A DNA stretch of 62,446 nt from an uncultured Pelagibacteraceae bacterium (GTDB lineage Bacteria > Pseudomonadota > Alphaproteobacteria > Pelagibacterales > Pelagibacteraceae). Numbering within the stretch: the first letter of the stretch is position 1; every line of letters begins with the position of its first letter. The translations under genes and the position numbers were made by a program. Shown here one piece after another: positions 13,064-57,407 of the stretch. The notes under the pieces are model-generated. The model saw nothing but the letters and a program-made list of their open reading frames with translations. It ran no database searches and was not told the origin of the DNA. The stretch covers positions 1-62,446 of the forward strand of contig CACFMO010000007.1 in NCBI GenBank assembly GCA_902567495.1, read 5' to 3'.

Positions 13064-13124
13064 GTTAACCTTTTAACGTTATACAACAATTCTAGATCAT
13101 AAAAAACGGCTATTTCTTTGCTGG

Positions 13125-13155
13125 GTGAGTCCGTATTGTGCCCGCCAGTGAGTCC
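13125..13155. repeat. Iteron triplet A2R (three-iteron arm right of R2)
   Basis: GTGAGTCC (13125), TTGTGCCC (13136) and GTGAGTCC (13148), spaced 11 and 12 bp, starting 84 bp after core R2. The block from the core to the next start codon is almost the same as the block right of R7. The last iteron ends 16 bp before the next ATG. Confidence 0.8.
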
Positions 13156-13171
13156 AGATAAGATAAGTCTC

Positions 13172-13771
13172 ATGAAAAAACTTTTAGCCATCATCATTCT
13201 GAGCTTATGCTTTATAACTTCGTCAAAGGCAGATGATATCCGAGACTTTCAAATCGAAGGGATAAGTATAGGCGATAGTTTATTAAAATTTGTTGATAAA
13301 AATACTATTCTTTCTTCACGCAAATATACTTATAAAGATGATAAATTTTATAGTTTAGATATTTGGAGTGAAAAATTTCAGAATTATCAAGTTATTCAAT
13401 TCCATTTAAAAAAAAATGATAATAATTATAAGATACATGGTTTAAGTGGAGCATTGCTATTCGGTAAATCATCTAGATATTATCCTGAGTCAGAAAAATT
13501 ATGTAAAGAGAAAAAAAATTCTATTGAGATTGAAATTGACAAATTATTTGAGAACGCAAAAAAATATAGTAAGAATTTTGTTGGTCAAGGAAGCTATGAC
13601 CCGGAAGTAATAAGACAAGAAACTTATTTTCTTATGGATAGTGGTCAAGTTTGGTTACAGTGTGCTACTTGGGGCAAAAAAGCAAAAGTAAAGCATAACA
13701 TTATAGATAATTTAAGAATTTCAATTCTATCAAATGAGTTTGATAAATGGATGACTAACGAAGCTTATTAG
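13172..13771 (+). CDS. Secreted DFQIEGIS-family protein (cassette R2-R3)
   Basis: 199 residues from the ATG chosen; an upstream start at 13118 would translate the iteron arm and is rejected. A clear signal peptide (KKLLAIIILSLCFITSSKADD) precedes the family motif RDFQIEGISIGDSLLKF. Later conserved features are a DNNYKIHGLSGALLF strand, a Cys (EKLCKEK), a C-terminal CATWGKKAK segment and DNLRISILSNEFDKW at the end. The function is unknown; the protein is predicted periplasmic. It is followed 1 bp later by a paralogue with a nearly identical signal peptide. Confidence 0.8.
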   Translation: MKKLLAIIILSLCFITSSKADDIRDFQIEGISIGDSLLKFVDKNTILSSRKYTYKDDKFYSLDIWSEKFQNYQVIQFHLKKNDNNYKIHGLSGALLFGKSSRYYPESEKLCKEKKNSIEIEIDKLFENAKKYSKNFVGQGSYDPEVIRQETYFLMDSGQVWLQCATWGKKAKVKHNIIDNLRISILSNEFDKWMTNEAY

Positions 13772-13772
13772 A

Positions 13773-14345
13773 ATGAAAAAACTTTTAACCATCATCATTT
13801 TAAGTCTATGCTTCGTAACTTCGTCAAAGGCAGATGATATTAGAGATTTTCAAATTGAAGGGATGAGTGTAGGAGATAGTTTATTAAATTTTTACGATAA
13901 GAAAACTATTAAAAAACATCATCAAAATTATTATAAAGATAAAAAGTTCTCTACGTTTGAAATTGATCTTAACAAATCTGAAACTTACGATGGTCTACAA
14001 GTTGTTTATAAATCAAAAGATTCAAAATATATTATACATTCAATCTCTGGCTCAGTAGATTGTCCTTACAAATTTTCAAAATGTGAAAAAGCTTGGCAAA
14101 AAATATTGCCTGAACTAGATGGAATGTTTAAAAAAAATTCCAAGAGGATTGATAAAGGAACCTTTAATCATAGCGCAGATAAATCGAAAAAAAGTAAAGT
14201 TACCATGATTGTTTATGAATTCTACTCTAAAAATAGAGTTAGTATCGAAATGACTAATTGGTCTAAAGAGATTGGTTATATAGATAATTTAAGAATTAGT
14301 GTTGATACAAAAGAATTTGTTGAGTGGCTGTTTACAGCTTATTAA
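13773..14345 (+). CDS. Secreted DFQIEGIS-family protein, tandem paralogue (cassette R2-R3)
   Basis: 190 residues. The signal peptide (MKKLLTIIILSLCFVTSSKA) differs from its upstream neighbour at only two positions, while the mature parts have diverged much more, apart from the RDFQIEGMSVGDSLL motif. Also present are KYIIHSISGSVDCP with paired Cys (CPYKFSKCEKAW) and the C-terminal DNLRISVDTKEFVEWL. Unknown function, predicted periplasmic. It starts 1 bp after the preceding stop, so the two are co-translated. Confidence 0.8.
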   Translation: MKKLLTIIILSLCFVTSSKADDIRDFQIEGMSVGDSLLNFYDKKTIKKHHQNYYKDKKFSTFEIDLNKSETYDGLQVVYKSKDSKYIIHSISGSVDCPYKFSKCEKAWQKILPELDGMFKKNSKRIDKGTFNHSADKSKKSKVTMIVYEFYSKNRVSIEMTNWSKEIGYIDNLRISVDTKEFVEWLFTAY

Positions 14346-18103: not shown

Positions 18104-18149
18104 ACTTTTTTAAAAATTATTGTTTAACGGGAGTTTTGAGTCTTTGGAA

Positions 18150-18172
18150 GGGGCGTTCTGTTGCCAGGTGCC
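18150..18172 (-). repeat. Core repeat R8 within ssrA (presumed native integration site)
   Basis: GGGGCGTTCTGTTGCC plus AGGTGCC; with two more C it closes the GGGGC/GCCCC stem of the terminal hairpin of the tmRNA coding piece. Only this copy is joined to a complete ssrA, so it is taken as the original target and R1-R7 as copies displaced by successive insertions. Confidence 0.92.
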
Positions 18173-18204
18173 CCAAACCCCGTTTACCTAATTAACAAAG
18201 TTAA

Positions 18205-18234
18205 TTAAGCAGCAAGTGCAAATTTATCATTTGC
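18205..18234 (-). other. tmRNA tag-peptide reading frame
   Basis: Codons GCA AAT GAT AAA TTT GCA then CTT GCT GCT TAA give ANDKFALAA and a stop. The AND start and the ALAA-type C-terminus (ClpXP/ClpAP degron) match proteobacterial tags. At nine residues it is short for an alphaproteobacterium. The resume codon is assumed to be the first GCA. Confidence 0.85.
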
Positions 18235-18393
18235 ATTTATAATTAGCCCGTTACGTCGGAACCATCTCGAACGAAAGAATAGCCTTTAGACACTCGTCGA
18301 TTCTGATTCACCCCCATAAGTTGTAAATGGTGGAGGTGGTGGGTACTGCCCCCACGTCCGCAATGTTTATTACGAAACTCGTTTATCGTCATA

Positions 18394-18419
18394 GTTGGAA
18401 AACCAACAGATATAATATA
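18394..18419 (-). promoter_or_regulatory. Probable ssrA -10 region and 5' leader hairpin
   Basis: On the minus strand a TATATTATA stretch (18419-18411) lies just before a GTTGG/CCAAC hairpin (18407-18394) and the tmRNA acceptor piece. The spacing suits a -10 box and transcript start; no convincing -35 box is visible. Confidence 0.35.
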
Positions 18420-18453
18420 AAATCAAAAAATAAAGATTCAATAAATATTTCAA

Positions 18454-41225: not shown

Positions 41226-41815
41226 TGAAAAAGTTAATATTTATTTGTATAATATTGGCTTTACCAAAAATATCTTTTGCAAACGAAAGATCAATTCCAC
41301 TAGAATTATTTACCGCAAAGGAAAGACAACACAGTGGTAAACTTAAAGTCACCGGTCCTATGGATTGGAAAAATAAAAGAACTGGTGAAGTACATCAAGT
41401 TTACGAGAGAAAAAGAGGTTCAAAAATCCAATTATTTGCAAAAACAAATAATGGTCAGTGTTTAGGAAGGGTAATGGACAGCAGATATGAAAAAAGAGGA
41501 TTAGTTTATATAAAAAATGGCTGCAAATTTCCTTTAGGCAATTGGAAAGAGGGTGAGAAAAGAGAATTTATATCGACATATTTTTATAATAATAGAAATA
41601 GAGACTATAAGAAGACTATTACAATTAAAAAAATTGGTAATGAAAAAAAATGCTTAACATTTAGATGGTCAAAAGCTAGATTAGATGGAACAATGATTGA
41701 TGATAATAGCTATACTTATTGTCCCAAAAAAGGCTTTACAAAAATAGTATCGCATAAATCTGGAAAAATGAGCATGACAATATCAGGAAATATAAAAGCC
41801 ACAGGCACCAAATGA
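41225..41815 (+). CDS. Secreted protein of unknown function
   Basis: 196 residues with signal peptide (KKLIFICIILALPKISFANE). The mature protein is beta-rich with paired Cys (NGQCLGRVMD, KNGCKFPLG, EKKCLTFRW and YTYCPKKGF, possibly two disulfides). No family recognised. Its ATG shares a base with the stop of the dehydrogenase gene (TAATG), and its stop overlaps the next start, so it belongs to the dehydrogenase-etfBA transcript although the sequence suggests a periplasmic protein. Confidence 0.75.
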   Translation: MKKLIFICIILALPKISFANERSIPLELFTAKERQHSGKLKVTGPMDWKNKRTGEVHQVYERKRGSKIQLFAKTNNGQCLGRVMDSRYEKRGLVYIKNGCKFPLGNWKEGEKREFISTYFYNNRNRDYKKTITIKKIGNEKKCLTFRWSKARLDGTMIDDNSYTYCPKKGFTKIVSHKSGKMSMTISGNIKATGTK

Positions 41816-42444
41816 AAAAAATATTTTTAATTTTTAGTATCTTATTTCTCTCAACCAACTTAGTTGCAGATGAAATTGAAAATTTTGAAATTGAAGGTAT
41901 CACCATAGAAGAAAGTCTACTTAAGCACTTTAGTAAAAAAGATATCGAAACTGAGATAAATAGTATTTATTCTTATAAATACGAAAATGGCAAATATATT
42001 CAATTAGGTGTTGGAGACAACAAAGATTATTCTATGAAAAAAAAAATGAATTTGTTTGATTCAATGTCTATTGTGGTTAAAGGAGATGATAAAAAATATA
42101 TAATAAAATCATTAAGTGGAAAAATTCTTTGTCACAATAATATTAACAGATGTAATTCAAAGTATGATGAAATTGTCGCTGATTTGAAAAATTATTTTGA
42201 AGATAGTATAGATGAGGTAACTGATAGAAAAGAACCTCATAATGTTGATAAAAAAAAAGAAAGCTGGGTAACCAGCACTTATTTTTATCTTAAAAATAGA
42301 AAACACGCTAATATTATGGCTGAAATTTACGATTGGAGTAAAAGAGTCGAAAAAGAACAGAATTGGGGAGATAATTTAAAACTTTCAATTCAGTCAGATG
42401 AGTTTATAGAATTCCTTCAAAAAAACCCACCAGATAAGTTATAA
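41812..42444 (+). CDS. Secreted DFQIEGIS-family protein (backbone, etf operon)
   Basis: 210 residues. Signal peptide (KKIFLIFSILFLSTNLVADE), then the family motif ENFEIEGITIEESLLKHF, KYIIKSLSGKILCHNNINRC and the C-terminal DNLKLSIQSDEFIEFL. Predicted periplasmic, function unknown. It overlaps the preceding gene by 4 bp and ends 6 bp before etfB, so this member sits inside a core catabolic operon, unlike those in the cassettes. Confidence 0.8.
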   Translation: MKKIFLIFSILFLSTNLVADEIENFEIEGITIEESLLKHFSKKDIETEINSIYSYKYENGKYIQLGVGDNKDYSMKKKMNLFDSMSIVVKGDDKKYIIKSLSGKILCHNNINRCNSKYDEIVADLKNYFEDSIDEVTDRKEPHNVDKKKESWVTSTYFYLKNRKHANIMAEIYDWSKRVEKEQNWGDNLKLSIQSDEFIEFLQKNPPDKL

Positions 42445-42450
42445 TTAATT

Positions 42451-43200
42451 ATGAAAATATTAGTCGCTGTTAAAAGAGTTATTGATTACAACGTTCAGAT
42501 AAGAGTTAAAGAGGATGGCTCAGGAGTTCATACTGACAATGTGAAAATGTCAACCAATCCTCCAGATGATAATGCAACAGAGGAGTCTGTTAAATTAAAA
42601 GAGTCTGGAAAAGTAAAAGAAATTGTTGCAGTTACAATAGGCGATGACAAAGCACAGGAAACAGTTAGAAAAGCTTTAGCAGTTGGAGCAGATAGAGGAA
42701 TTCACGTTAAGTCTGATACATATATTGAACCGTTAGCTATCGCCAAAATTTTAAAAAAAGTAGTTGAGAAAGAAAAACCAGATATGGTTTTCTTAGGTAA
42801 ACAAGCAATCGATGATGATTGTAATCAAACAGGACAAATGCTTGCAGCGATGTTGAATTGGCCTCAAGCAACTTTTTCTTCAAAAGTAACTCTAAAAGAT
42901 AAAAGCATGGAAATTGTAAGAGAGATAGACGAAGGTTTAGAAACTGTTGAGGTAAATTTACCAGCAGTTGTAACTTGTGACCTTAGATTAAACGAACCAC
43001 GTTATGCATCGCTACCAAATATAATGAAAGCTAAGAAAAAACCAATTGATCAAATGGTTGCTAAAGACTTAGGTGTAGATATTACAAACAGAGTTCAGCA
43101 ATTGAAAGTAGAGGAGCCACCAAAAAGAAAAGCAGGAATTAAAGTTGCAAATGTTGCAGAATTAGTAAGCAAGCTTAAAAATGAGGCGAAGGTAATTTAA
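42451..43200 (+). CDS. etfB: Electron transfer flavoprotein, beta subunit
   Basis: EtfB, 249 residues, binds AMP and shares the FAD pocket with EtfA. N-terminal [20 protein letters not shown] and the family signature [20 protein letters not shown] with [10 protein letters not shown] are clear. It accepts electrons from dehydrogenases such as the dimethylglycine dehydrogenase-like enzyme upstream. It ends where etfA begins. Confidence 0.96.
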
Positions 43201-44153
43201 TGTCAGTATTATTAATAGCGGAACACAATAATAAAAATCTTAAACCATTTACTTTAAATGCAATAACTGCAGCATCTAAAATTGATGCAGAAGTTCATGT
43301 TTTAGTAGCGGGTAGTGGATCAGAAAGCGTAGCTAAAGAAGCTGCGGCAATACCTCTAGTTAAAAAAGTTTTACACTGCGATTCTCCTAATTATCAAAAT
43401 TATTTACCAGAAAATTTAGCCCCACTTGTAACAAAACATTCTGAAAAATATGATCATATTGTTGCATCAGCAAATACTTTTGGAAAAAACTTCATGCCAA
43501 GGGTTGCGGCTGCATTAGATACTTCTCAAGTGAGTGATATAATAAAAGTAAACTCACCAGATACTTTTGTAAGACCAATTTATGCTGGGAATGCATTTGC
43601 GACTGTAAAAAGTAACGACAAAAAAAGATGTGTAACAATTAGACCAACATCATTTGAACCTGCACCTAAAACAGGAGGTTCCGCACAAATTGATAAAGTA
43701 GATGCAGCTGATGTTCCTAACTTTTCTAAATTTGTAAAAAGGGAAGAAACAAAATCAGAAAGACCTGAACTTGGAACTGCAAGAATAGTTGTATCTGGCG
43801 GCAGAGGACTAGAAAGTGGAGAAAACTTTAAACTCATAAATGATATCGCTGATAAATTAAACGCAGCAGTTGGTGCATCACGCGCAGCTGTTGATGCCGG
43901 TTATATAAGCAACGATCATCAAGTAGGTCAAACAGGAAAAGTAGTTGTCCCAGATTTATATATTGCAGTTGGAATTTCAGGGGCCATTCAACATTTAGCT
44001 GGAATGAAAGAGAGCAAAATAATTGTTGCAATCAACAAAGATGGAGAAGCTCCAATATTTAGTATTGCTGATTATGGTTTAGAGGCAGATTTATTCAAAG
44101 CTCTTCCGGAATTGTTATCTGAATTAAACAAACTCAACACTATTCAAAAATAA
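43200..44153 (+). CDS. etfA: Electron transfer flavoprotein, alpha subunit
   Basis: EtfA, 317 residues. The C-terminal FAD domain is intact: ARIVVSGGRGLESGENF, GASRAAVDAGYI, QVGQTGKVVVPDLYIAVGIS, GAIQHLAGMKESKIIVAINK and DGEAPIFSIADYGLEADLF. It passes electrons to ETF-quinone oxidoreductase, encoded at 51906. Convergent with the secreted-protein gene at 44177. Confidence 0.97.
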   Translation: MSVLLIAEHNNKNLKPFTLNAITAASKIDAEVHVLVAGSGSESVAKEAAAIPLVKKVLHCDSPNYQNYLPENLAPLVTKHSEKYDHIVASANTFGKNFMPRVAAALDTSQVSDIIKVNSPDTFVRPIYAGNAFATVKSNDKKRCVTIRPTSFEPAPKTGGSAQIDKVDAADVPNFSKFVKREETKSERPELGTARIVVSGGRGLESGENFKLINDIADKLNAAVGASRAAVDAGYISNDHQVGQTGKVVVPDLYIAVGISGAIQHLAGMKESKIIVAINKDGEAPIFSIADYGLEADLFKALPELLSELNKLNTIQK

Positions 44154-44176
44154 AAGTTATTGCACAGTGTAAAAGC

Positions 44177-44791
44177 CTAATTAGACTTAAACTCTAAAAA
44201 CTTGACAAACACTTCTGAGTCAACTGCTACGTATAGAGAGTTATATTTAAACCCATTTCTATTTATATCGTAACACACAAGTTGAAAAGGCCTTCTATTT
44301 CCTGCAAACAAATCTATATACTTAACGCTTAATTGATGTTTTTTTAGTCTTTCTTTTTCAAACCATACATTTCTTCTTAATTTGCCATCAATTGTTTCTT
44401 GTATATAATTGGCTACTTCGGTTTGTTTTTTGTAACAGTCTTTTATATCTCCGTTTTTCCAAATCAAAGTTCCTTCCAAAGCATATATTTCATAATTAGT
44501 AGAGTTAGAGTCTATAATGACACCTATACTATCGTAAACTTCAAATTTTTTTGGTATTTTTAGATCCCTGGGTTTTACTCCAATTGATGAAAATTTTTTA
44601 TTTCTATATTTTTTTGGATAGTGAAAAGTAGTAGTACTTTTTAATTGTTTTTTAATTTGATCAACACTCATATAATCTAACAGACTATCTCCTACGCTTA
44701 TACCTTCTATTTGAAAATCAGTGATATCATCTGCCTTCAAGGGGTTTATCAAAAGTAAACTGAGAAACAATATTGTTAAAAATTTTTTCAT
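44177..44791 (-). CDS. Secreted DFQIEGIS-family protein (backbone pair, second gene)
   Basis: 204 residues. Signal peptide (KKFLTILFLSLLLINPLKADD), motif TDFQIEGISVGDSLLDYM, NYEIYALEGTLIWKNGDIKDC, and the C-terminal NSLYVAVDSEVFVKFL. Predicted periplasmic, unknown function. Its start overlaps the stop of the upstream paralogue by 4 bp (ATGA), so the two are coupled. Confidence 0.8.
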   Translation of the reverse strand: MKKFLTILFLSLLLINPLKADDITDFQIEGISVGDSLLDYMSVDQIKKQLKSTTTFHYPKKYRNKKFSSIGVKPRDLKIPKKFEVYDSIGVIIDSNSTNYEIYALEGTLIWKNGDIKDCYKKQTEVANYIQETIDGKLRRNVWFEKERLKKHQLSVKYIDLFAGNRRPFQLVCYDINRNGFKYNSLYVAVDSEVFVKFLEFKSN

Positions 44792-45345
44792 TTTCTAAAG
44801 AATTTTACATAATCTTCAGAACCAATGCTAACAGATCCCTCGTCAGTAAATCTAGTATTTTTATCATATTGGGTGCACCATAGTCTCACAACTCCCTTTT
44901 CAGATGGAAAAAAATACTCACTTACATGAGCTTTAGAATTTTTCATTTTTTTATCTTGGTAACCAACAGTATCATGATCAAAATTTGCATCAGGTAGAAT
45001 TGTAGATATCTCTTTTATTACCTCTTCTTTAAATCTCATACATCTTTGAAATCTATTTTCAAATTTTTTTATACCTTTTATAGAGTGAATAATATATTTT
45101 TTATCATTGATCTTTACATGAAATCCTAATTCCTCATAAATTCCATTACTTTTACTGTACAGAACATTAAAAACTCCTCTGTCATAGGTAGTTTTTGGAA
45201 AGTTTAAAATTTCAGATTTAGAATAAAAATCTAATAAGCTATCACCAATACTTATCCCCTCAATTTCTAAATCTTTTATGCTTTCAGCCTTTAATTGTAT
45301 TTGAGTAAAACTTATTAAAATAATAATAATAATAATTTTTTTCAC
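44788..45345 (-). CDS. Secreted DFQIEGIS-family protein (backbone pair, first gene)
   Basis: 185 residues. Signal peptide (KKIIIIIILISFTQIQLKAES), motif KDLEIEGISIGDSLLDFY, KYIIHSIKGIKKFENRFQRC and the C-terminal VSIGSEDYVKFFRK. Same layout as the other members: one Cys after the central strand and one in the RLWCTQYDK segment. First of a two-gene operon on the minus strand, divergent from the caspase gene with a 92-bp gap that holds both promoters. Confidence 0.8.
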   Translation of the reverse strand: MKKIIIIIILISFTQIQLKAESIKDLEIEGISIGDSLLDFYSKSEILNFPKTTYDRGVFNVLYSKSNGIYEELGFHVKINDKKYIIHSIKGIKKFENRFQRCMRFKEEVIKEISTILPDANFDHDTVGYQDKKMKNSKAHVSEYFFPSEKGVVRLWCTQYDKNTRFTDEGSVSIGSEDYVKFFRK

Positions 45346-45437
45346 TAAAAAATTGTAACTAATTAGTTGGTTTTTTCAAATAAAATGATGATAATTAATA
45401 AGTTATCAAAATAACATATTTCGGCTATAATTTATTT

Positions 45438-47327
45438 ATGAAAAGATTCTTAGTATATCTTTTTTTTACAGTTATATTGAGTATATTGAGCAATCAGGTT
45501 GCTTCAGCATCATGGATTACTAAAAAATCTGATACTTCTGAAAAGGTAGAAAAAATAGAAAAAGAATATGCGGATGGTTTAATTACAAAATCAGAATGTA
45601 ATAAACAAAAGTCCAAAGTTCTTAAATTATCAAAAACATCAGAAACTATCTGTGATAATGTTGAGGTAAAGGTAGCAAAATCAGAATGGATTAAAAAGAA
45701 GTCAAAAGAAGAAGTAAAAAAAGAGAAATCAAATTACCTCCAAAAAAAAGAAAAAGAGACAAAAAAAGAATTTGTAAAGAAAAAAAAGAATTTGTCAAAA
45801 TCAATTAAAAAATGGATTTCAAAGAAAAAAACCAAAGAAAAACAGCATTATAATTCTATAGCACAACTACCTAAATCTGATTTTTATTTTACTGCTGTTG
45901 ATGGAACTGGAAACACATTCATTGGTTATTTAAACGGAAATGAAAATGAAGGTATCATAAAAGTAAGCGGCCAAAGTATGCTCAAAATATCAGATGGTAA
46001 AGCTTTTCAAGATAATGGAAAAACACAATGTGACGTTAGATCAGAAATTTTAAAAGCAGATAAAGTAATATTTAATGGCGTAGTAATTATTAAGTGTCCA
46101 ACAAAAGAATTTATAGGTAGTTGGACTCAATCAGGATCTGAAGGTTTTGGTATCGCTACTTCTGAAAAAACTAGACTAGATTTCAATTTTTCTAAAAGCA
46201 GAAATGATGTTTATGCATCTTTAAGTAAAAATAAAAAGAATAAAAAACTAGTATTAAAAGATAAAAAGAGTGACAAAATAAAAGATAGTATTTGTCCAGA
46301 GATAAAATTAGTAGATAATAAGCAAGTTTATAGTAGCTCAGATTGTAAGACCACAGAAGCAAAAATTCAGGCAAAGGATGGTAATTTTTCTTTAATTGGT
46401 TTTGCAACAGACAATGAAGAAGTCCAACGTTTTTCTATTGATGGTAGACCAATTAAACTAAAATCTGATGGAAGTTTTAAATACAGCGGAAAAACTAATT
46501 CCTCAAAAGATGTTTATCTTGTTGCTACAGATAAATTTGGAAAAATAACTGAATTAAAAGTTAATATAGAAGTTTTGGCAGCTTCAAAAAAATTTGTTAA
46601 TAACAAAAAATATTATGCTTTAATAATAGGCAATAGTGAATACAAACATTGGGACAATCTTGTTTCCCCAACTAACGATATAGATGTAATTGCAGCGGTT
46701 CTAAAAGATAAATACAATTTTGAAGTTCCGATTCTTTTAAAAAATGCAGACAAAGCCTCTATTGAAGAAGCATTTTTTAAAATGAACAAAATACTAACAG
46801 AGGATGATTATTTATTAATTTATTATGCTGGCCACGGTGACAAAAATCCAAGTATTCAAAAAGCATATTGGATACCAACAAATGCAGGAAGTAGTTTTGA
46901 TAGAAATTGGATAAGCACATCTTTTGTAACTGAGATGATAGGAACTTTTAAAGCAAAACATGTTCTACTCATGGTAGACAGTTGTTACTCTGGTTTGCTT
47001 AAAGGATCAAACACCAACCTAACAGTTGTTGATGGAGACACAAATGATGCTGTTTTTCTTACAAAATTATTAAATAGAAAGACAAGACTATTTATATCAT
47101 CTGGCTCTGACGAACCTGTTTTGGATACTAGCGATGATAAACATTCTTGGTTTGCAAAAAAATTTCTTGAATTATTAGAAAATAATCAAAATACTTTGAC
47201 TTCAATAGAAATATACATGAAAATAAATCGATATGTTCACGTTAATGCAAGTCAAAGACCAAAATATGATGTTATTAAAGAAACAGGACATAACGAAGGC
47301 ATGTTTTTATTTACAGCAAAAAATTAA
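45438..47327 (+). CDS. Secreted caspase-fold (metacaspase-like) cysteine protease with accessory domains
   Basis: 629 residues. Signal peptide (residues 1-24). A short SHOCT-like helix pair (EKVEKIEKEYADGLITKSEC) and a Lys-rich region (80-140) with WITKKS, WIKKKSK and WISKKK motifs. A beta domain (145-260) has turns resembling MORN repeats (FIGYLNGNENEGIIKV). An Ig-like segment (285-380) follows. The C-terminal caspase domain (391-629) has KYYALIIGNSEYKHW, the catalytic His466 in YYAGHG and Cys516 in VDSCYSG. Substrate unknown. Periplasmic by signal peptide. The next gene, a trypsin-like protease, shares the WIxKKSK motif. Confidence 0.85.
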   Translation: MKRFLVYLFFTVILSILSNQVASASWITKKSDTSEKVEKIEKEYADGLITKSECNKQKSKVLKLSKTSETICDNVEVKVAKSEWIKKKSKEEVKKEKSNYLQKKEKETKKEFVKKKKNLSKSIKKWISKKKTKEKQHYNSIAQLPKSDFYFTAVDGTGNTFIGYLNGNENEGIIKVSGQSMLKISDGKAFQDNGKTQCDVRSEILKADKVIFNGVVIIKCPTKEFIGSWTQSGSEGFGIATSEKTRLDFNFSKSRNDVYASLSKNKKNKKLVLKDKKSDKIKDSICPEIKLVDNKQVYSSSDCKTTEAKIQAKDGNFSLIGFATDNEEVQRFSIDGRPIKLKSDGSFKYSGKTNSSKDVYLVATDKFGKITELKVNIEVLAASKKFVNNKKYYALIIGNSEYKHWDNLVSPTNDIDVIAAVLKDKYNFEVPILLKNADKASIEEAFFKMNKILTEDDYLLIYYAGHGDKNPSIQKAYWIPTNAGSSFDRNWISTSFVTEMIGTFKAKHVLLMVDSCYSGLLKGSNTNLTVVDGDTNDAVFLTKLLNRKTRLFISSGSDEPVLDTSDDKHSWFAKKFLELLENNQNTLTSIEIYMKINRYVHVNASQRPKYDVIKETGHNEGMFLFTAKN

Positions 47328-47333
47328 ATTTTA

Positions 47334-48611
47334 ATGAGAAAACTTGTTCTATTAACTTCTATTGTATTTTTTTTACTTCCTGTCCAAGCAGCAGATAATA
47401 AATTTAAAAGAATGTATAAAATGGATTATACAAAAAAAGAGAATATTAATGTTGGTTTCACAAATATGGTAAATAATGAAAAAATCGAAACTTTAAATAG
47501 TGAATTATCTAAATATCAAAAAATTAAAAATTATGTTACAAGCAAGGAAAAACCAGGGACAAAAAGAAAAAAATATAAAGGATTAAGTCAAAATATTTAT
47601 AAAAATAATGCAGGCAGCGTGGTTTACATTGGTAACCCATCAGCAAAAGGAACGGGGTCTGGTTTTTTGATAAATAAAGAAGAAGGATTGATTTTAACGA
47701 ATTGGCATGTAATTGAAGGTGCTAAAAAAGTATATGTCTGGTTCAAACCAGAAGATCCAAGCAAAATGGACGAGGATTTATTAGTCAATGAACCAAGAAT
47801 AGATGGAACTGTAATTAAGAAAAACAAAAGCAAAGATTTAGGTTTAATTAAAGTTTTGCGTGTTCCTAAAAATGCAAAGGCTCTTAAAATAAACAAAAAA
47901 ATATATGTCGATGTGGGATCAACAGCATATTCAATTGGTCATCCGAGTGGTCTAACCTGGACTTTTAATTCTGGAATGGTGACTCAAGTTAGGAAAGGTT
48001 TTAAATGGAGATATAAAAACTCTAGACATTTAGCAAATGTAATTCAGCATGAAGTTCCAACAAACCCAGGTAATTCAGGTGGACCATTATTTAATGATAA
48101 GGGAAATGTGATTGGAGTAAATTCTTTTAAAGACTCAAAAGGTGAGGTGATAAACTTTTCAGTATCAACAGACGAGATTGATAAATTCTTAAAAGAAAAA
48201 ATAGTTGAGAAAAAGAAAAGTCAATACATACAAAAAAAATCCAAGCAAACTTGGATACAAAAAAAATCTAAGAAAAAAAATTCTTTAACAGATGGAATAA
48301 AAAAAAACTTTCCTGACGCAAAACCCCATGACGAAAATAAAAATGGAATTTACGATACCTGGTGGATAGATGAAAATAAAAATGGAATAATAGATACGGC
48401 ATTTGTTGATGATAATGAAGATGGACTAATAGAAGCTGTATTAGTTGATGATGATGAGAATGGAAAATGGGACTTTCTATTTGTTGATAAGGACCTTGAT
48501 GGAAATCCAGATATTGCATACATTGACAGGGATCAAGATGGAAACCATGATGTAGTTGCTTATGATTATGATCAGGATGGTGAGTGGGACAAATTTGAAA
48601 ACGCAGGTTAG
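47334..48611 (+). CDS. Secreted trypsin-like serine protease with seven 13-residue calcium-loop repeats
   Basis: 425 residues. Signal peptide ending PVQAA; HtrA-like protease domain (residues 90-290) with His125 in LTNWHVIEG, Asp168 in SKDLGLIKV and Ser248 in NPGNSGGPLFN. There is no PDZ domain. A Lys-rich linker contains YIQKKSK and WIQKKSKKK, the motif seen in the caspase protein upstream. The C-terminus (333-423) is seven unbroken 13-residue units of form DxDxDGxxDxxxx, like EF-hand or thrombospondin type 3 calcium loops. It follows the caspase gene by 6 bp, so the two proteases are one operon. Confidence 0.85.
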   Translation: MRKLVLLTSIVFFLLPVQAADNKFKRMYKMDYTKKENINVGFTNMVNNEKIETLNSELSKYQKIKNYVTSKEKPGTKRKKYKGLSQNIYKNNAGSVVYIGNPSAKGTGSGFLINKEEGLILTNWHVIEGAKKVYVWFKPEDPSKMDEDLLVNEPRIDGTVIKKNKSKDLGLIKVLRVPKNAKALKINKKIYVDVGSTAYSIGHPSGLTWTFNSGMVTQVRKGFKWRYKNSRHLANVIQHEVPTNPGNSGGPLFNDKGNVIGVNSFKDSKGEVINFSVSTDEIDKFLKEKIVEKKKSQYIQKKSKQTWIQKKSKKKNSLTDGIKKNFPDAKPHDENKNGIYDTWWIDENKNGIIDTAFVDDNEDGLIEAVLVDDDENGKWDFLFVDKDLDGNPDIAYIDRDQDGNHDVVAYDYDQDGEWDKFENAG

Positions 48612-48641
48612 ATTTTCATAAAATCAGTATCATATTATAAA

Positions 48642-50039
48642 ATGTTTTTAAGAAAATTATTTATATACTTAAAGTACTTATTTATAATAACCTTTTTTTT
48701 ATCCAGTCATATTAAAGCCGGTATTGATAATTGTGACATGTTTATCCAATCTATAGAGGATAAAAAAGAATTTGATTATCCTACTAAAACCTTGAACGAC
48801 CTTGGTATCTTTTTTCAAAAAAAACTAGGCAAGAATGGAAACGAAGAAATTATAAGAGATAAAAATAATTACCCGAAAGTATATTTTTCGGTTTTTGAAA
48901 AAGAAAAATTAAAAAATGGCACTGTAATAAAGTCAATAAACAAAAATAACTTATCAAAAATTTCAGATAGTCAATTAACTAGTTTAATTAAAAAAATTAG
49001 TATGGGAACTATAGAATATTCAAATTCTTTAAACGAAACCTATAATACTAAAGTTTATGCAAGAGAATATGAAAGTATTATTTTTTTAGTAGATGAACTT
49101 TTTATTAATACAATCGGAGAAGTTGACGCTAAAAAAGGTTTTTTCGCAATGAATTATAATTTTAAATTGATATACGAACGACCAGATCTAAAATCTGAGG
49201 GAGTTTTATTAAAAAACGACGAATGTAGAATCAAAACTAAAGTTTATGAGGCAAAATTTAATGATATTTATCGACCCGATAAGGAAATATTTATTACACA
49301 GTTTGATAAAGATAGAGATAAAATCGAAGAAAGTTTTGGTTTTTACCAAAATAATGGCAACACATTTTTATCTCAATTTATTAATGGCACATCTAAAATT
49401 AGATCAAAATTTAACTTTAGTAAATTCCCGTTTGATACCCAGCCTCTAGAAATTAACATTATTTCAGGTTTAAAAATAAATGCAGGAAATGAGATAACTC
49501 AAATTTATTCAACACCAAATCTATTTAAAAATATAAAAAATTTTAAAGAGAATAATTTTCTTGAGGAATGGAAAGTTCAAAACTTTGAAATTAAAAATAA
49601 TTTAATTAATATAGATAATTCAAATTACGACTCCTTAAAAATTTCAATAAATATAAAAAGGAATTCAAATTATTATATTTTTAAAATTATAATCCCGGTA
49701 TTATTAATCTTGTTGGTAGCATGGAGTGTTCTATGGATCCCGCCTAAAGAGGAATGGGTTGAATCAAGGCTTACAACTTCAATTGTAGCTTTATTATCTT
49801 TGATTGCCTACAACTTTGTTTTTTTGGATGATATTCCAAAATTAGATATCTTAACAAGTTTAGATTTGTTTGTACTCTTATCCTATCTATTCTGTGCAAT
49901 ACCAATATTTACAACGATTTTTTTAAGTAGATTGTTAGATAGAAATCCGAAAAGAGCATACAAAAGAAACAAAGCCATTAGATTTTATGGTGGAGCAATT
50001 TATATTGTTTTTAATTTATTCATTTTTCTGCCGATATAA
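48642..50039 (+). CDS. Pentameric ligand-gated ion channel (Cys-loop receptor) homologue
   Basis: 465 residues. Signal peptide (about 1-27), an extracellular beta domain with the prokaryotic counterpart of the Cys-loop (FSKFPFDTQPLEINI, around residue 262), and four membrane helices at the end: M1 from about 343 (YYIFKIIIPVLLILLVAWSV), M2 with ESRLTTSIVALLSLIAYNFV, M3 with YLFCAIPIFTTIF after LDILTSLDLFVL, and a final helix. This matches GLIC/ELIC-type channels. The extracellular domain is longer than in GLIC. Ligand and ion selectivity are unknown. It lies 31 bp after the protease gene on the same strand. Confidence 0.82.
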   Translation: MFLRKLFIYLKYLFIITFFLSSHIKAGIDNCDMFIQSIEDKKEFDYPTKTLNDLGIFFQKKLGKNGNEEIIRDKNNYPKVYFSVFEKEKLKNGTVIKSINKNNLSKISDSQLTSLIKKISMGTIEYSNSLNETYNTKVYAREYESIIFLVDELFINTIGEVDAKKGFFAMNYNFKLIYERPDLKSEGVLLKNDECRIKTKVYEAKFNDIYRPDKEIFITQFDKDRDKIEESFGFYQNNGNTFLSQFINGTSKIRSKFNFSKFPFDTQPLEINIISGLKINAGNEITQIYSTPNLFKNIKNFKENNFLEEWKVQNFEIKNNLINIDNSNYDSLKISINIKRNSNYYIFKIIIPVLLILLVAWSVLWIPPKEEWVESRLTTSIVALLSLIAYNFVFLDDIPKLDILTSLDLFVLLSYLFCAIPIFTTIFLSRLLDRNPKRAYKRNKAIRFYGGAIYIVFNLFIFLPI

Positions 50040-50044
50040 ATATA

Positions 50045-50710
50045 TTAATTTTGCATTTTATTTATTTTTTCAAGCCAAAGTTCGTATTTTTCACTTGTCA
50101 CAGTAATCCTCATTTCATCTGGATAACCAACTTTTTCTGACCAATCGTAACAACTGACAGTTATAAAATTTAATGGTTTAAGATCTTTTTCACGAAATTT
50201 AAAAGCAAAAATGGACTGATCTACAGGAGAGTCTTTATACATAAAATGTGGTGCTGATTGTTCATAAAAAATTATCTTCCTATTTACATTTTTACGATTC
50301 CCGTCCCACTTAATTACATTTTCAAAAAGACCTTGTATCTCTCTAGCTATTTCCACCCTTTTTTTGTTACATCCTTTAAAGTCGTTTGTATAATCTATAA
50401 TACCCTCAATATTTAAAATTTTAAAATCTTTATTCTTGTATGCATAACTCAACATAACTGCGTCATAGTCTTTAGGAACTAAATTTGGTTTTACTTCGTA
50501 TCTTATCATTTCCTTATTACTTCCTTGGTCTGGTGGAAAATAACTTGCACTCTCAATTTCAGACTTTTTTACTAATTTTGTTAATTTTTCGTTTATTCCA
50601 AACGGTCCAATTGTGAAATCAGAGATAGTATTTGAAAAAACTTTATTATTTATAAGAAATGTAAAAAAAATTATTATTAAAATATTTCTAATTTTAATTG
50701 TATGCTTCAT
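50045..50710 (-). CDS. Secreted DFQIEGIS-family protein, divergent member
   Basis: 221 residues from MKHTIKIRNILI at 50710 (an upstream start at 50725 is possible). Signal peptide, then a variant of the motif (SDFTIGPFGINEKLTKLV) in which IEGIS is replaced. The rest follows the family: YKNKDFKILNIEGIID, FKGCNKKRVEI, TVSCYDWSEKVGYPDEMRIT and the C-terminal SEKYELWLEKI. Predicted periplasmic. It overlaps the preceding gene on the same strand by 17 bp. Confidence 0.75.
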   Translation of the reverse strand: MKHTIKIRNILIIIFFTFLINNKVFSNTISDFTIGPFGINEKLTKLVKKSEIESASYFPPDQGSNKEMIRYEVKPNLVPKDYDAVMLSYAYKNKDFKILNIEGIIDYTNDFKGCNKKRVEIAREIQGLFENVIKWDGNRKNVNRKIIFYEQSAPHFMYKDSPVDQSIFAFKFREKDLKPLNFITVSCYDWSEKVGYPDEMRITVTSEKYELWLEKINKMQN

Positions 50711-51263
50711 CAAGTAAAAAATCATTATGTTCTAGTGTATGAACTGTTACTGATAAAAAATCCCACTGAGGTGGTTCATAATCATAACAAGTAACCGCCA
50801 CCCTCCCTCTATCTGAAAAAAAACTCTCTGACACGTAAGTCCCAGATCTTTTTTTATTCGGATGTTTTAAATTTTTTCTTCCTGTTTTTCGAAAATCTTT
50901 CATTAATTCATCTAAACTAGAAATTATTTCATCCATTTTTTTATAACAATCTGACATTTTTTTATTTCTCCAATCAATCACCCCTGAAACTGAATGAATA
51001 ATGTATTTACTATCGTTACTCTTATATTCAAAATCAACAGCATCATATGTTTTAAAAAAATCTAATTTATCATTATAAACTGGTGTAAACCTTTTGTTAC
51101 CTGGATAAGATTTTGATCTGCTTTTAATTTCGTCCTCAGTAAAAAAGTCTAAAGCACTATCACCAACACTTATACCTTCAATCTTTAAGTCTTCAATATC
51201 ATTAGCAAAAACTATCTGTTTACAGAAACAAGTGACAAAAAGCACTATAAGTAATTTTTTCAT
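50694..51263 (-). CDS. Secreted DFQIEGIS-family protein (backbone)
   Basis: 189 residues. Signal peptide (KKLLIVLFVTCFCKQIVFAND), motif EDLKIEGISVGDSALDFF, KYIIHSVSGVIDWRNKKMSDC and VAVTCYDYEPPQW, and an EAYN C-terminus. Predicted periplasmic. It follows the Sel1-repeat gene by 1 bp, whose signal peptide (KKLLVVLFVTSISLNSIFAN) is similar, and overlaps the next family member. Confidence 0.78.
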   Translation of the reverse strand: MKKLLIVLFVTCFCKQIVFANDIEDLKIEGISVGDSALDFFTEDEIKSRSKSYPGNKRFTPVYNDKLDFFKTYDAVDFEYKSNDSKYIIHSVSGVIDWRNKKMSDCYKKMDEIISSLDELMKDFRKTGRKNLKHPNKKRSGTYVSESFFSDRGRVAVTCYDYEPPQWDFLSVTVHTLEHNDFLLDEAYN

Positions 51264-51264
51264 A

Positions 51265-51876
51265 TCAAGACTCTATTGAGTTTAAAATTCCAATATACCA
51301 ATCTCTCAATTTTATCATTTCATTAGTAGGATTTTTATTATATTCGTTAATCTCATCTAATAATTCCTCGGGCATAGTGCCACCTCTGTTCGTAGACGTT
51401 ATCCACTGCGATGCGCTTAACTCCCAATACTGTTTTGCTTTTACAAGGTCTTTTTTGACACCACCTAATCCTGAATAATAGAAAAAACCAATATTATAAC
51501 TTGCAATTGTAAATCCTAAATCCGAAGCTTTTTTATTCCAATCAAATGCCTCTTTATCATTCTTATTCATAATTTTTCCGGTAAAACTCTCCCAGCCTAA
51601 AGTTGTCATAGCGTTGACCTGACCTTGCCATGCTGCCTTGTATAAATAATCAATCCCTATACCTATATTTTTTTCATCTGGAAAAATACCGGCCCTGGGC
51701 ATTCCATATAAAAAAATATGTCCTATATCATTTTGTGAAACTGCATCACCCGAATCTGCTTTTTGTTTCATTTTAAGTAAGTATTCAGGCAAGCTATCAT
51801 CCGCTTTTATATTATTTGCAAAAATACTATTAAGGCTTATTGAAGTGACAAAAAGCACTACAAGTAACTTTTTCAT
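51265..51876 (-). CDS. Secreted Sel1-like repeat protein
   Basis: 203 residues with signal peptide (KKLLVVLFVTSISLNSIFAN). Helical Sel1/TPR-like repeats: QKADSGDAVSQNDIGHIFLY, GIDYLYKAAWQGQVNAMTTLG, AFDWNKKASDLGFTIASYNIG, FFYYSGLGGVKKDLVKAKQYW. Such repeats are usually protein-binding scaffolds. First gene of a three-gene minus-strand operon with two DFQIEGIS-family members; divergent from ETF-QO by 29 bp. Confidence 0.8.
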   Translation of the reverse strand: MKKLLVVLFVTSISLNSIFANNIKADDSLPEYLLKMKQKADSGDAVSQNDIGHIFLYGMPRAGIFPDEKNIGIGIDYLYKAAWQGQVNAMTTLGWESFTGKIMNKNDKEAFDWNKKASDLGFTIASYNIGFFYYSGLGGVKKDLVKAKQYWELSASQWITSTNRGGTMPEELLDEINEYNKNPTNEMIKLRDWYIGILNSIES

Positions 51877-51905
51877 AACAGAAATTTTATGTTATAGTTT
51901 TTTTA

Positions 51906-53513
51906 ATGTCCAGAGAGACAATGCAATACGATGTGGTTATAGTTGGTGCTGGTCCAGCAGGGCTATCAACAGCCATCAAACTTAAACAATTAAATCAAAA
52001 GTTGAATATTTGTATTTTAGAGAAGGGTTCTGAAGTTGGGGCTCATATATTAAGCGGCAATGTTCTTGAAACCAGAGCTCTTGATGAACTATTACCTAAA
52101 TGGAAGGAAGAAGGAGCACCTGTAAAAACTAAAGTTACAAAAGAAAAATTTTTATTTTTAGGAAAAAATTCATCTCTTAGTTGGCCAACTTGGCTTTTAC
52201 CAGCAGTTCAAAAAAATCATAATAATTACATAGTTAGTCTTGCCAACCTTTGTCGTTGGCTTGCGGAACAAGCTGAGAAGTTAGGAGTAGAAATTTTTCC
52301 AGGATTTCCAGCAAGCGAAGTTCTTTTTAATGAAGATGGTTCTGTAAAAGGAGTAGCAACTCTAGATATGGGATTAGATAAAGAGGGAAATAAAAAAGAT
52401 GGATACCAAGAAGGAATGGAACTCCATGCAAAAGTTACAGTTTTTTCAGAAGGATGTAGAGGACATTTAGGCAAACAATTAATTAAAAAATTTAATTTAG
52501 ATGAGGGAAAAAATCCTCAGCAATACGGTATTGGACTGAAAGAAATTTGGGAAGTTAGTGAAGAACAACATCAGGAAGGATTAGTAATGCATACTGCAGG
52601 CTGGCCTTTAGATAACAAAACATACGGTGGAAGTTTTATTTATCACGCTGAAAACAAACAAATTTACCTTGGTTATGTAATTGGACTTGATTACCAAAAC
52701 CCACACTTATCCCCATTCGATGAGTTTCAAAGATTTAAAACACACAAAGCAATAAGAAAAATGTTTGAGGGAGGAAAAAGAATTTCTTTTGGTGCTAGAG
52801 CTTTAATTGAGGGTGGTCTTCAAAGTTTACCAAAAATGTATATGCCAGGAGCATTATTAGTTGGTTGTGATGCAGGAACTTTAAATATGCCAAAGATTAA
52901 AGGAACCCACACAGCAATGAAAAGCGGAATGATAGCTGCAGAAACTATTGTTGAACATATTAAAAATAAAAGAAAATTATCTTTATACGAAGAATTATTT
53001 AAAAAAAGCTGGGTGTATAAAGAACTTCATACAGCTAGAAATGTTAAACCAAGTTTTAGTTGGGGATTATTACTTGGAATTATCTTTACAGGAATCGATC
53101 AAATTTTATTTAGAGGCAAACTACCTTTCACGTTGAAGCACAAACATGCAGACCACGAAGCTTTAAAGCCTGCAAGTAAAATGCCTAAAATAGAATATCC
53201 GAAACCTGATGGCAAACTTACTTTTGATAAAACAAGTTCAGTATATTTAACAGGTACAAATCACACTGAAAATCAACCAGTACATCTTCAATTAAAAAAT
53301 AAATATTTGCCCATACAATATACTTTAAAAGAATATGACGAACCTGCTCAAAGATATTGTCCAGTTGGTGTTTACGAGATTCAAAAAAATGAATTTGTAA
53401 TTAATTCACAAAATTGTATCCATTGCAAAACTTGCGATATCAAAGAACCTTCACAGAATATTAATTGGGTAGCTCCAGAAGGTGGCGGCGGACCTAAATA
53501 CGGCAATATGTAA
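51906..53513 (+). CDS. Electron transfer flavoprotein-ubiquinone oxidoreductase
   Basis: Membrane-associated enzyme that moves electrons from reduced ETF into the quinone pool. 535 residues: FAD motif YDVVIVGAGPAGLSTAIKL, ILEKGSEVGAHILSGNVLE, LVGCDAGTLNMPKIKGTHTAM, and a C-terminal 4Fe-4S site (CPVGVYEI, NCIHCKTCDIKEPSQNI, WVAPEGGGGPKYGNM). The length and order match bacterial and mitochondrial ETF-QO. Together with EtfAB (42.4-44.2 kb) it forms the electron outlet for the amine dehydrogenase in the window. Stop overlaps the start of the next gene by 1 bp. Confidence 0.96.
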   Translation: MSRETMQYDVVIVGAGPAGLSTAIKLKQLNQKLNICILEKGSEVGAHILSGNVLETRALDELLPKWKEEGAPVKTKVTKEKFLFLGKNSSLSWPTWLLPAVQKNHNNYIVSLANLCRWLAEQAEKLGVEIFPGFPASEVLFNEDGSVKGVATLDMGLDKEGNKKDGYQEGMELHAKVTVFSEGCRGHLGKQLIKKFNLDEGKNPQQYGIGLKEIWEVSEEQHQEGLVMHTAGWPLDNKTYGGSFIYHAENKQIYLGYVIGLDYQNPHLSPFDEFQRFKTHKAIRKMFEGGKRISFGARALIEGGLQSLPKMYMPGALLVGCDAGTLNMPKIKGTHTAMKSGMIAAETIVEHIKNKRKLSLYEELFKKSWVYKELHTARNVKPSFSWGLLLGIIFTGIDQILFRGKLPFTLKHKHADHEALKPASKMPKIEYPKPDGKLTFDKTSSVYLTGTNHTENQPVHLQLKNKYLPIQYTLKEYDEPAQRYCPVGVYEIQKNEFVINSQNCIHCKTCDIKEPSQNINWVAPEGGGGPKYGNM

Positions 53514-56788: not shown

Positions 56789-56807
56789 GTGAGTCCAATT
56801 TGTGACC
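56789..56807. repeat. Iteron pair left of the 56.8-kb accessory gene
   Basis: GTGAGTCC (56789) and TTGTGACC (56800), 11 bp apart. The 24 bases from TCTGAGTGAG to TGTGACCA recur exactly at 57416-57439, so they form direct repeats around one gene. The same iteron type as in the ssrA array. No core repeat is recognisable to its left. Confidence 0.72.
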
Positions 56808-56828
56808 AGAATATTGTATGATTATTTG

Positions 56829-57407
56829 ATGAAAAAACTTTTAATGTTTATTGTCTTTAACTTTTATTTAATAACTCCTTCTTATGGAAATCAAATTGAG
56901 GATTTTCAGATTGAAGGTATTAGTATGTGGGATAGTGCCCTTAAACATTTTTCTAAAGCGGAAATTATAAATAATAAAAAACTTTATTATCAATATATTA
57001 AAAAAAATAAAGACATGTTCTCTACATCTGAAATTTCAGGAAATTATGAAAACTATGATGTTCTACAATTTTCGTATAAGACTAATGACCCTAAATTTAA
57101 GATTTATTATATAGCTGGTATTATCGACTTTGATAACGATGTTGAGAGTTGTTATGAAAAAAAAAAAGAGGTAGAAAAAGATCTAAAAATTTTATTTCCT
57201 AATCTTAAGAACTCTGAGTCTAATATAAAACTTCGTGCAGACCCGACTGGACAATCATTTGTAAAATCTAAAGTATTTTGGTTTCCTAATAATGCTTATA
57301 ATGTAGGAATAAGATGCTACGATTGGTCCCCACAATCTCAAAGAACTGACCATTTAAGAATAAACATTAAATCTAAACAATTTAATGATTGGATAGGAGA
57401 AAAATAA
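56829..57407 (+). CDS. Secreted DFQIEGIS-family protein (accessory unit at tRNA-Met fragment)
   Basis: 192 residues from MKKLLMFIVFNFYLITPSYG at 56829; an earlier in-frame start at 56802 lies in the iteron arm. Motif EDFQIEGISMWDSALKHF, KFKIYYIAGIIDFDNDVESC, VGIRCYDWSPQSQRTDHLRI and the end KSKQFNDWIGEK. Predicted periplasmic. It is bounded on both sides by identical iteron pairs, like the genes in the ssrA cassettes, and starts 22 bp after the left pair. Confidence 0.8.
   Translation: MKKLLMFIVFNFYLITPSYGNQIEDFQIEGISMWDSALKHFSKAEIINNKKLYYQYIKKNKDMFSTSEISGNYENYDVLQFSYKTNDPKFKIYYIAGIIDFDNDVESCYEKKKEVEKDLKILFPNLKNSESNIKLRADPTGQSFVKSKVFWFPNNAYNVGIRCYDWSPQSQRTDHLRINIKSKQFNDWIGEK

Follow-up and report, generated by a model that had tools for sequence, protein, structure and literature searches.

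Three consecutive intact genes on the plus strand lie at positions 45438-50039 of a 62,446-nucleotide stretch of DNA (the window; contig CACFMO010000007.1 of assembly GCA_902567495.1) from an uncultured member of the Pelagibacteraceae, in the SAR11 group, whose assembly comprises 0.97 Mb in 25 contigs. The first gene (45438-47327, 629 amino acids) encodes a caspase-fold protease of the C14, orthocaspase-like type. The second (47334-48611, 425 amino acids) encodes a trypsin-like, HtrA-like protease that has no PDZ domain and ends in a calcium-loop-like tail, and the third (48642-50039, 465 amino acids) a homologue of the pentameric ligand-gated ion channels (pLGICs, or Pro-loop receptors) with a PDZ-like domain at its N-terminus. 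Both proteases appear to be secreted; signal peptides of the cassette proteins were assessed by eye only. A preliminary description of this DNA had reported the same run of genes with gaps of 6 and 31 bp. The list of open reading frames bears it out, except that the second gap is 30 bp, not 31.

The first protein matches Pfam Peptidase_C14 (2.8e-23, above the cut-off), with a catalytic domain at residues 393-610 (46614-47267), and the closest sequences in the PDB are those of the MALT1/GSU0716 caspase fold (about 5e-4). The catalytic dyad, H466 and C516, is conserved in 30 of 31 caspases, the remaining one being truncated there, and the same holds for D414 and D514, which we take to form an acidic S1 pocket. 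The caspase fold with an intact His-Cys pair proposed earlier is thereby confirmed. In its caspase domain, His-Cys dyad and conserved Asp positions the protein resembles the orthocaspases and metacaspases (C14B), while it differs from them in carrying N-terminal W-I-x-K-K repeats and in being apparently secreted. C14B enzymes cleave after basic residues, according to the available text of PMC6426788.

The second protein matches Trypsin_2 (1.5e-26, above the cut-off), and its closest PDB sequence is HtrA (2.1e-18). The triad residues H125, D168 and S248 are conserved in 38, 40 and 40 of 40 trypsins, respectively, both missing histidines being alignment gaps, and the DxDxDG-like repeats of the tail (48330-48593), putative calcium loops, are found in all eight trypsins that were aligned. 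A trypsin-like protease with these two features had been predicted, and both stand. No Pfam PDZ match was found in this protein, and the full HtrA model scored far below its cut-off (106 of 416 bits). PDZ domains of the kind described below are normally carried by the HtrA proteases themselves. The window protease shares with HtrA, DegS and DegP the catalytic triad and a trypsin domain closest to that of HtrA, but it lacks the PDZ domain, which sits on the adjacent channel, and has a tagged linker and a calcium-loop-like tail. A viral origin of the trypsin was considered and rejected: among the 80 loci listed, out of 169 relatives in a scan of viral contigs, the best reached 36% identity over residues 106-283, and none of the listed relatives aligns past residue 333, where the tail starts.

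The third protein exceeds the cut-off for Neur_chan_memb (1.2e-6) and falls below it for Neur_chan_LBD (2.9e-4). Its closest PDB sequences are GLIC-type channels (1.7e-13), and an AlphaFold2 model (mean pLDDT 89.2) gave structural matches to GABA-A, DeCLIC and GLIC, in agreement with the earlier assignment to the pLGICs. The pro-loop FPFDxQ is present, F262, P263, F264 and D265 being invariant in 52 sequences and Q267 conserved in at least 90%. Transmembrane helices M1-M4, placed by model and alignment, occupy 49662-50036. By our reading, the M2 position that we take to be -2', from the alignment and the usual numbering, is Glu or Asp in 51 of the 52 channel sequences; by the rules known for pLGICs, this acidic residue predicts cation selectivity.

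The window channel is longer than GLIC owing to an extra domain ahead of the ligand-binding domain (residues about 49-147, 48786-49082), which appears from modelling to have a PDZ fold. Modelled alone (residues 25-150, 49 sequences), this domain gave a mean pLDDT of 90.9. VIA superimposed it on the PDZ region of CtpA with a Z of 11.1 and an rmsd of 1.8 over 86 residues, and, judging by title, the 50 VIA matches shown belong to Ctp/Prc, HtrA/DegS and further PDZ proteins; the best Foldseek match (E 2.9e-3) is also to the protease CtpA. Two relatives, L218 and L228, exceed the Pfam PDZ cut-off, the other relatives tried being below it or without a match, and one glycine in the LGI stretch of the domain is nearly invariant. 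Conserved basic sites in the channel were considered as protease cut sites. R180 and similar residues mark the channels of caspase-trypsin loci, but we claim no cut site there because Pro follows R180 and the window channel deviates at most such sites.

The ligand-binding domain, the FPFD pro-loop and the four transmembrane helices are held in common with the bacterial pLGICs GLIC, ELIC and DeCLIC, whereas the N-terminal PDZ domain (modelled) and the protease neighbours set the SAR11 channel apart. The N-terminal domains of DeCLIC, as the available text of PMC9897478 describes them, are of other beta-rich types, unlike the PDZ modelled here. In the openly licensed literature searched we found no report of a bacterial pLGIC that bears a PDZ domain or is linked to proteases, and no openly licensed paper that combines "pentameric ligand-gated ion channel" with SAR11. 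As of 2016, none of the microbial pLGIC proteins had been studied in vivo, according to the accessible part of PMC4795631.

Distribution in SAR11 and exchange with PrsW

In an even sample of 297 Pelagibacterales genomes, the channel query matched 27 genomes and the caspase query nine. The trypsin subtype was found in seven at E < 1e-80; weaker matches, the best at 1.4e-19 and presumably DegP-like, raise the trypsin query to 271 genomes. All three genes occur together in the source genome, G113, G173 and G229. Partial sets were also seen: G096 and G293 have the caspase and this trypsin without a channel match, G124 lacks a caspase and has PrsW besides the channel and trypsin, and G241, G278 and G254 have a caspase without this trypsin and with no pLGIC match to the channel query. 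Within the genus, the trypsin subtype is present in two of 31 genomes. The three-gene set is accessory in SAR11. Caspase plus trypsin, or the intramembrane protease PrsW, lies in the fetched neighbourhood of the channel in 17 of the 27 pLGIC genomes, and PrsW is above its cut-off in 15 of these 27 versus 17 of the 270 others.

For a second collection, 84,980 species genomes were scanned with the channel alignment. The best 80 of 94 relatives were retrieved as 79 loci, which with the window make 80. These loci were chosen by likeness to the window channel and come partly from the same genomes as the even sample; the scan was keyed on SAR11-like peptide patterns, and non-SAR11 channels are under-represented. 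By their titles the records are nearly all Pelagibacteraceae or Pelagibacterales, plus one SAR86, one alphaproteobacterial and one proteobacterial record. In 76 of the 80 loci a protease gene lies no more than 4.5 kb from the channel: caspase and trypsin in 31, trypsin only in four, PrsW in 36, and PrsW with trypsin in five. In the four trypsin-only loci the trypsin is near a contig end and the caspase was perhaps cut off; the four loci without a protease within this distance are L195 (at a contig edge), L207, L210 and L228. Wherever all three genes are present (31 of 31), their order, caspase, trypsin, channel, and their strand are identical.

Between trypsin and channel, 29 of the 31 full sets carry a CII-like gene in reverse orientation, the window and L159 being without it, and such a gene is present in 62 of the 80 loci of all types. 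Two of three proteins of this family that were tried match Phage_CP76 just below the cut-off; a search of the source genome found no match to the family. In L162, L163, L187 and L194, PrsW occupies the slot of the caspase and trypsin, ahead of the reversed CII-like gene and the channel. PrsW, a known intramembrane protease, is thus a partner of this channel family that can take the place of the other module; the CII-like gene is a frequent companion here. A quick tree was built from 89 channel sequences (SH-aLRT support only; some long branches); on it the protease label needs 8 changes, versus 34.2 for shuffled labels. One supported clade of 40, in which the inner branching is partly open, contains the 35 caspase-trypsin or trypsin rows together with L162, L163, L187, L194 and L161.

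Divergent pLGICs were also sought beside lone PrsW genes, and the idea was dropped: in none of 18 such regions (L100-L117) does one adjoin PrsW, a short-type channel lying about 6 kb off in L106. By our reading, nine of the 18 carry pairs of proteins of about 280 amino acids with two predicted transmembrane segments, possibly an alternative sensor module; L109 and L110 have a CII-like gene too. PrsW plus channel was also seen in L223 (the SAR86 record) and L231 (the alphaproteobacterial record). Short pLGICs (414-417 amino acids) in L124, L126 and L128 neighbour related proteins of 958-972 amino acids, that of L128 being an autotransporter with Big_5 (Pfam).

The shared tag, the DUF0 family and the insertion site

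The two proteases have a short sequence tag, W-I-x-K-K, in common. Pattern search located the first caspase copy, W-I-T-K-K-S, at 45513-45530, past the presumed signal cleavage site, and further copies at 45687-45704 and 45813-45830. In the trypsin, pattern search and alignment located two copies in tandem, YIQKKS and WIQKKS, in the linker that joins the protease domain to the tail (48225-48269); all copies are on the plus strand. Among the 80 loci, W[IL]xKK is present in all 25 caspases longer than 440 amino acids (this count leaves out six shorter caspases, which are broken or run into contig ends). Among the 35 trypsins from loci with a caspase or without PrsW, 32 have it in their C-terminal half. 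It is found in none of the five trypsins of PrsW loci, one of which, L161, has Y forms. The tag is near-exclusive to the two proteases: WIxKK[SDKT] occurs in one other open reading frame of 1,578 in the 80 loci, a broken-off caspase N-terminus. The trypsins of G293 and G124 are without the tag; the three caspase genes of G293 are untagged as well, and G124 has no caspase match. A looser pattern was abandoned. It hit 21 of 1,199 proteins, where shuffling predicts 5.85, and six of these hits are neither caspase nor this trypsin. Counted as a DNA pattern in the source genome, the tag gave 16 occurrences versus 9 for the reversed pattern, which is weak alone. The tag could be either a caspase cut site or a docking motif.

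The three genes are flanked by members of a secreted paralogue family without a Pfam match, labelled DUF0 here. Open reading frames and a family search place four of them on the minus strand, at 44177-44791, 44788-45345, 50045-50725 (divergent) and 50694-51263. A genome search found eight DUF0 genes in the source genome, all within the window; further paralogues are at 13118-14345, 41812-42444 and 56802-57407. Among 34 chosen genomes, DUF0 is present in nine, with 6 to 13 copies each, and these are exactly the nine whose caspase is tagged (in G241 with the Y form); G293 is among the 25 genomes that lack DUF0. Counted by locus, it accompanies 30 of the 35 loci of the caspase-trypsin and trypsin-only classes; contig ends truncate the remaining five, for which 3-14 kb of sequence is available. 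It is also present at one of the five PrsW-plus-trypsin loci, and at none of the 36 PrsW loci, in 622 kb covered. A later set of 31 genomes of the genus, four of them with DUF0 (the source genome, G314, G304 and G320), gave one consistent and one discordant case for the association with tagged caspase. In G241, G278 and G254 (L086-L088), larger tagged caspases of 701-816 amino acids lie inside arrays of about ten DUF0 genes or at their end.

Comparison across the genus delimits an insert at 44154-51905, between etfA (43200-44153) and ETF-QO (51906-53513), which contains the three cassette genes, the four minus-strand DUF0 genes and, at the island edge, a minus-strand gene for a secreted Sel1-repeat protein (51265-51876; Pfam Sel1 1.7e-13). 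The site was compared in ten other genomes of the same genus. It is empty in six (G164, G306, G317, G264, G217 and G090), with etfA and ETF-QO 21 bp apart, and occupied by other genes in three (G305, G281 and G279). In G314, the nearest same-genus relative, the three cassette genes are present there too, together with six DUF0 genes and genes for type I restriction-modification. The assembly of G304 breaks at this site, a DUF0 gene adjoining etfA at the contig end, and that genome has no trypsin-subtype match. The site is an insertion hotspot, since G279 and G281 hold different genes there: a lone trypsin-like gene (L142:10377-11474) and two SHOCT-matching genes, one just below the cut-off (L138:7744-9790), respectively. 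The restriction genes of G314 (L132:1301-3819 and L133:2974-3990) comprise a methylase, a specificity subunit and a 338-residue C-terminal part of the R subunit. Elsewhere in the window, a tmRNA gene starred by ARAGORN lies on the minus strand at 18114-18423, with the tag ANDKFALAA.

A possible route from proteolysis to ion flow

The same channel family is accompanied by two protease modules that are unrelated to each other, one secreted and soluble, the other in the membrane. They share a slot in four loci, and what they have in common is a channel with a PDZ-like domain and, often, a CII-like gene. For this reason we take proteolysis to be the likely input and ion flux the output. The explanation we favour, tentatively and with slightly less than even confidence, is an accessory envelope cassette that couples periplasmic proteolysis to ion flow at the inner membrane. 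In this view the two proteases, a secreted caspase and an HtrA-like trypsin that lacks a PDZ, would act in one pathway, joined by the W-I-x-K-K tag, which the caspase might cut (orthocaspases cut after Lys/Arg) or which might serve for docking. The periplasmic PDZ domain of the channel would read the action of the proteases, most simply if its groove bound the new C-termini made by cleavage; alternatively, the channel itself might be trimmed. The channel would then open and cations enter. In related loci without caspase and trypsin, PrsW would substitute for them, and the flanking DUF0 paralogues, which go with the tagged-caspase version, are perhaps tag receptors, inhibitors or substrates. 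Enzyme activity, the direction of the cascade, the PDZ ligand, gating and the physiological trigger are what we infer here, and PDZ gating as such seems to us doubtful. The preliminary description had suggested that a ligand or calcium at the envelope may gate ion flow and set off a protease cascade; of this reading the recurrent three-gene unit is supported, whereas gating by calcium or a ligand and the cutting of one protease by the other stay hypothetical.

Proteases in such a position could also set the amount of channel, with the PDZ domain delivering the channel to them, so that the channel would be a substrate of proteolysis, not its reader. In the Ctp and HtrA proteases, such PDZ domains serve to recruit substrates, which together with the fold match counts for such turnover or maturation, as do the absence of a PDZ from the window trypsin and the occurrence of two unrelated protease types in one slot. 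Alone, this role leaves unexplained a tag common to both proteases but not the channel, as well as the DUF0 family, and we consider it improbable.

Channels from outside the order served as a control. PF02932 matches 13 of 398 Pseudomonadota genomes, the source genome included. None of the 13 pLGIC loci of the other 12 genomes has PrsW, a caspase, this trypsin or the CII-like gene by SAR11-built models, which may miss distant forms and in two of the 13 loci also failed to detect the channel; the absence of these partners counts for the coupling in SAR11. Ten proteins of the outside loci were scanned against Pfam: two are channels that each carry a fused periplasmic binding domain, and the neighbours include three MCP-type matches (one at the cut-off) and one phosphonate-binding match, no protease being among the ten. 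These neighbours and fusions fit Tasneem et al. (PMC549065), whose available text describes other bacterial pLGICs as fused to or neighbouring PBP, Cache and MCP-N domains. They favour the view that the channel is an ordinary small-molecule chemoreceptor and the proteases are hitch-hiking island neighbours with a separate job, such as peptide scavenging or quality control, and the variable island and the few genomes with the full set point the same way. Such hitch-hiking would not predict the fixed gene order, PrsW in the same slot, the modelled PDZ on the channel or the linkage to proteases, and it strikes us as improbable.

A number of observations weigh against a coupled cassette. Co-conservation in SAR11, which the preliminary description had proposed to check, is mixed: the order is fixed, and in the window channel's own clade 35 of 40 channels lie beside a caspase and/or trypsin, but all three genes occur together in only four of the 27 channel genomes of the even sample, four of its nine genomes with caspase and four of its seven with the trypsin subtype. 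These partial sets weaken the cassette explanation and strengthen the hitch-hiking one. In 10 of the 27 pLGIC genomes no such protease was found in the fetched DNA, some of it cut by contig ends; six of the ten have short channels of 413-423 amino acids (two near contig ends) and one has a contig-end fragment. Two of the ten channels adjoin genes for AMP-binding and FTHFS proteins, as shown by Pfam in one case and by similarity in the other, and the long channel of G021 has genes for a CII-like protein and an acetyl-CoA synthetase beside it. The PDZ-type channels of L207 and L210, without a protease within 4.5 kb, likewise adjoin AMP-binding and FTHFS genes, and PrsW is also present without a pLGIC. 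The 80 loci are related and overlap the even sample, so that their counts are not independent events, and the channel tree needs only 8 label changes. As for the PDZ fold, no Foldseek match of the window model reaches E 0.001, and the window channel sequence has no Pfam PDZ match. The tag is missing in its W form from the trypsins of L160, L177 and L200, and in the 1,199-protein set that form also occurs in two small secreted open reading frames of DUF0 arrays (L087:6992-7255 and L088:499-816), neither caspase nor trypsin. Finally, G320 has one divergent DUF0 and no caspase within the 20 kb fetched.

The patchy, accessory distribution, the variable insertion site and the restriction-modification genes in the same insert of G314 would suit anti-phage defence, in which the caspase is activated when infection is detected at the envelope and turns on the trypsin and channel, and depolarisation stops the cell. 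Caspases and trypsins paired with a toxic effector are a known theme: in bacterial gasdermin and canu loci, as the accessible parts of PMC9079055 and PMC12799240 describe them, a caspase and/or trypsin lies beside an effector, a gasdermin pore or a nuclease. Here the effector would be a pLGIC, not a gasdermin or nuclease, and the proteins are predicted to act outside the cytoplasm. Judging signals by eye, all three look periplasmic or membrane-facing, whereas the protease-activated defence systems known to us are cytoplasmic. Neither a gasdermin nor an MBL-type nuclease was matched among the ten proteins Pfam-scanned at 43200-53513, and no PADLOC model hit the channel, CII-like or PrsW proteins tried at E 0.01. 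PADLOC did hit the window proteases (caspase, 8e-13; RT-protease, 5e-17), which we think reflects shared protease domains and not defence. Of 76 pattern matches in viral contigs, none encodes a channel relative, and a viral origin by way of the channel was rejected on the same count. We regard a defence function as unlikely.

The coupling of periplasmic proteolysis to ion flow could be taken a step further, though with a good deal less confidence. The locus would then represent a new signalling class, in which the PDZ domain of a pentameric receptor channel gates on the free C-termini of cleaved proteins and the protease module is exchangeable, either tagged caspase and trypsin or PrsW; DUF0 would be a sensor or holder that recognises the tag and restrains the proteases until an attack on the envelope occurs. 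Five features were absent from the preliminary description: the modelled PDZ domain of the channel, the exchange of its protease partners for PrsW, the tag common to caspase and trypsin, the secreted DUF0 genes linked to them, and a variable site of insertion. A channel family that has a PDZ domain and whose genes mostly go with proteases gives a testable idea for the role of bacterial relatives of the nicotinic and GABA receptors, with proteolysis as input and ion flux as output. If true, some of the smallest free-living genomes would contain a pathway outside the cytoplasm that leads from proteases to membrane permeability.

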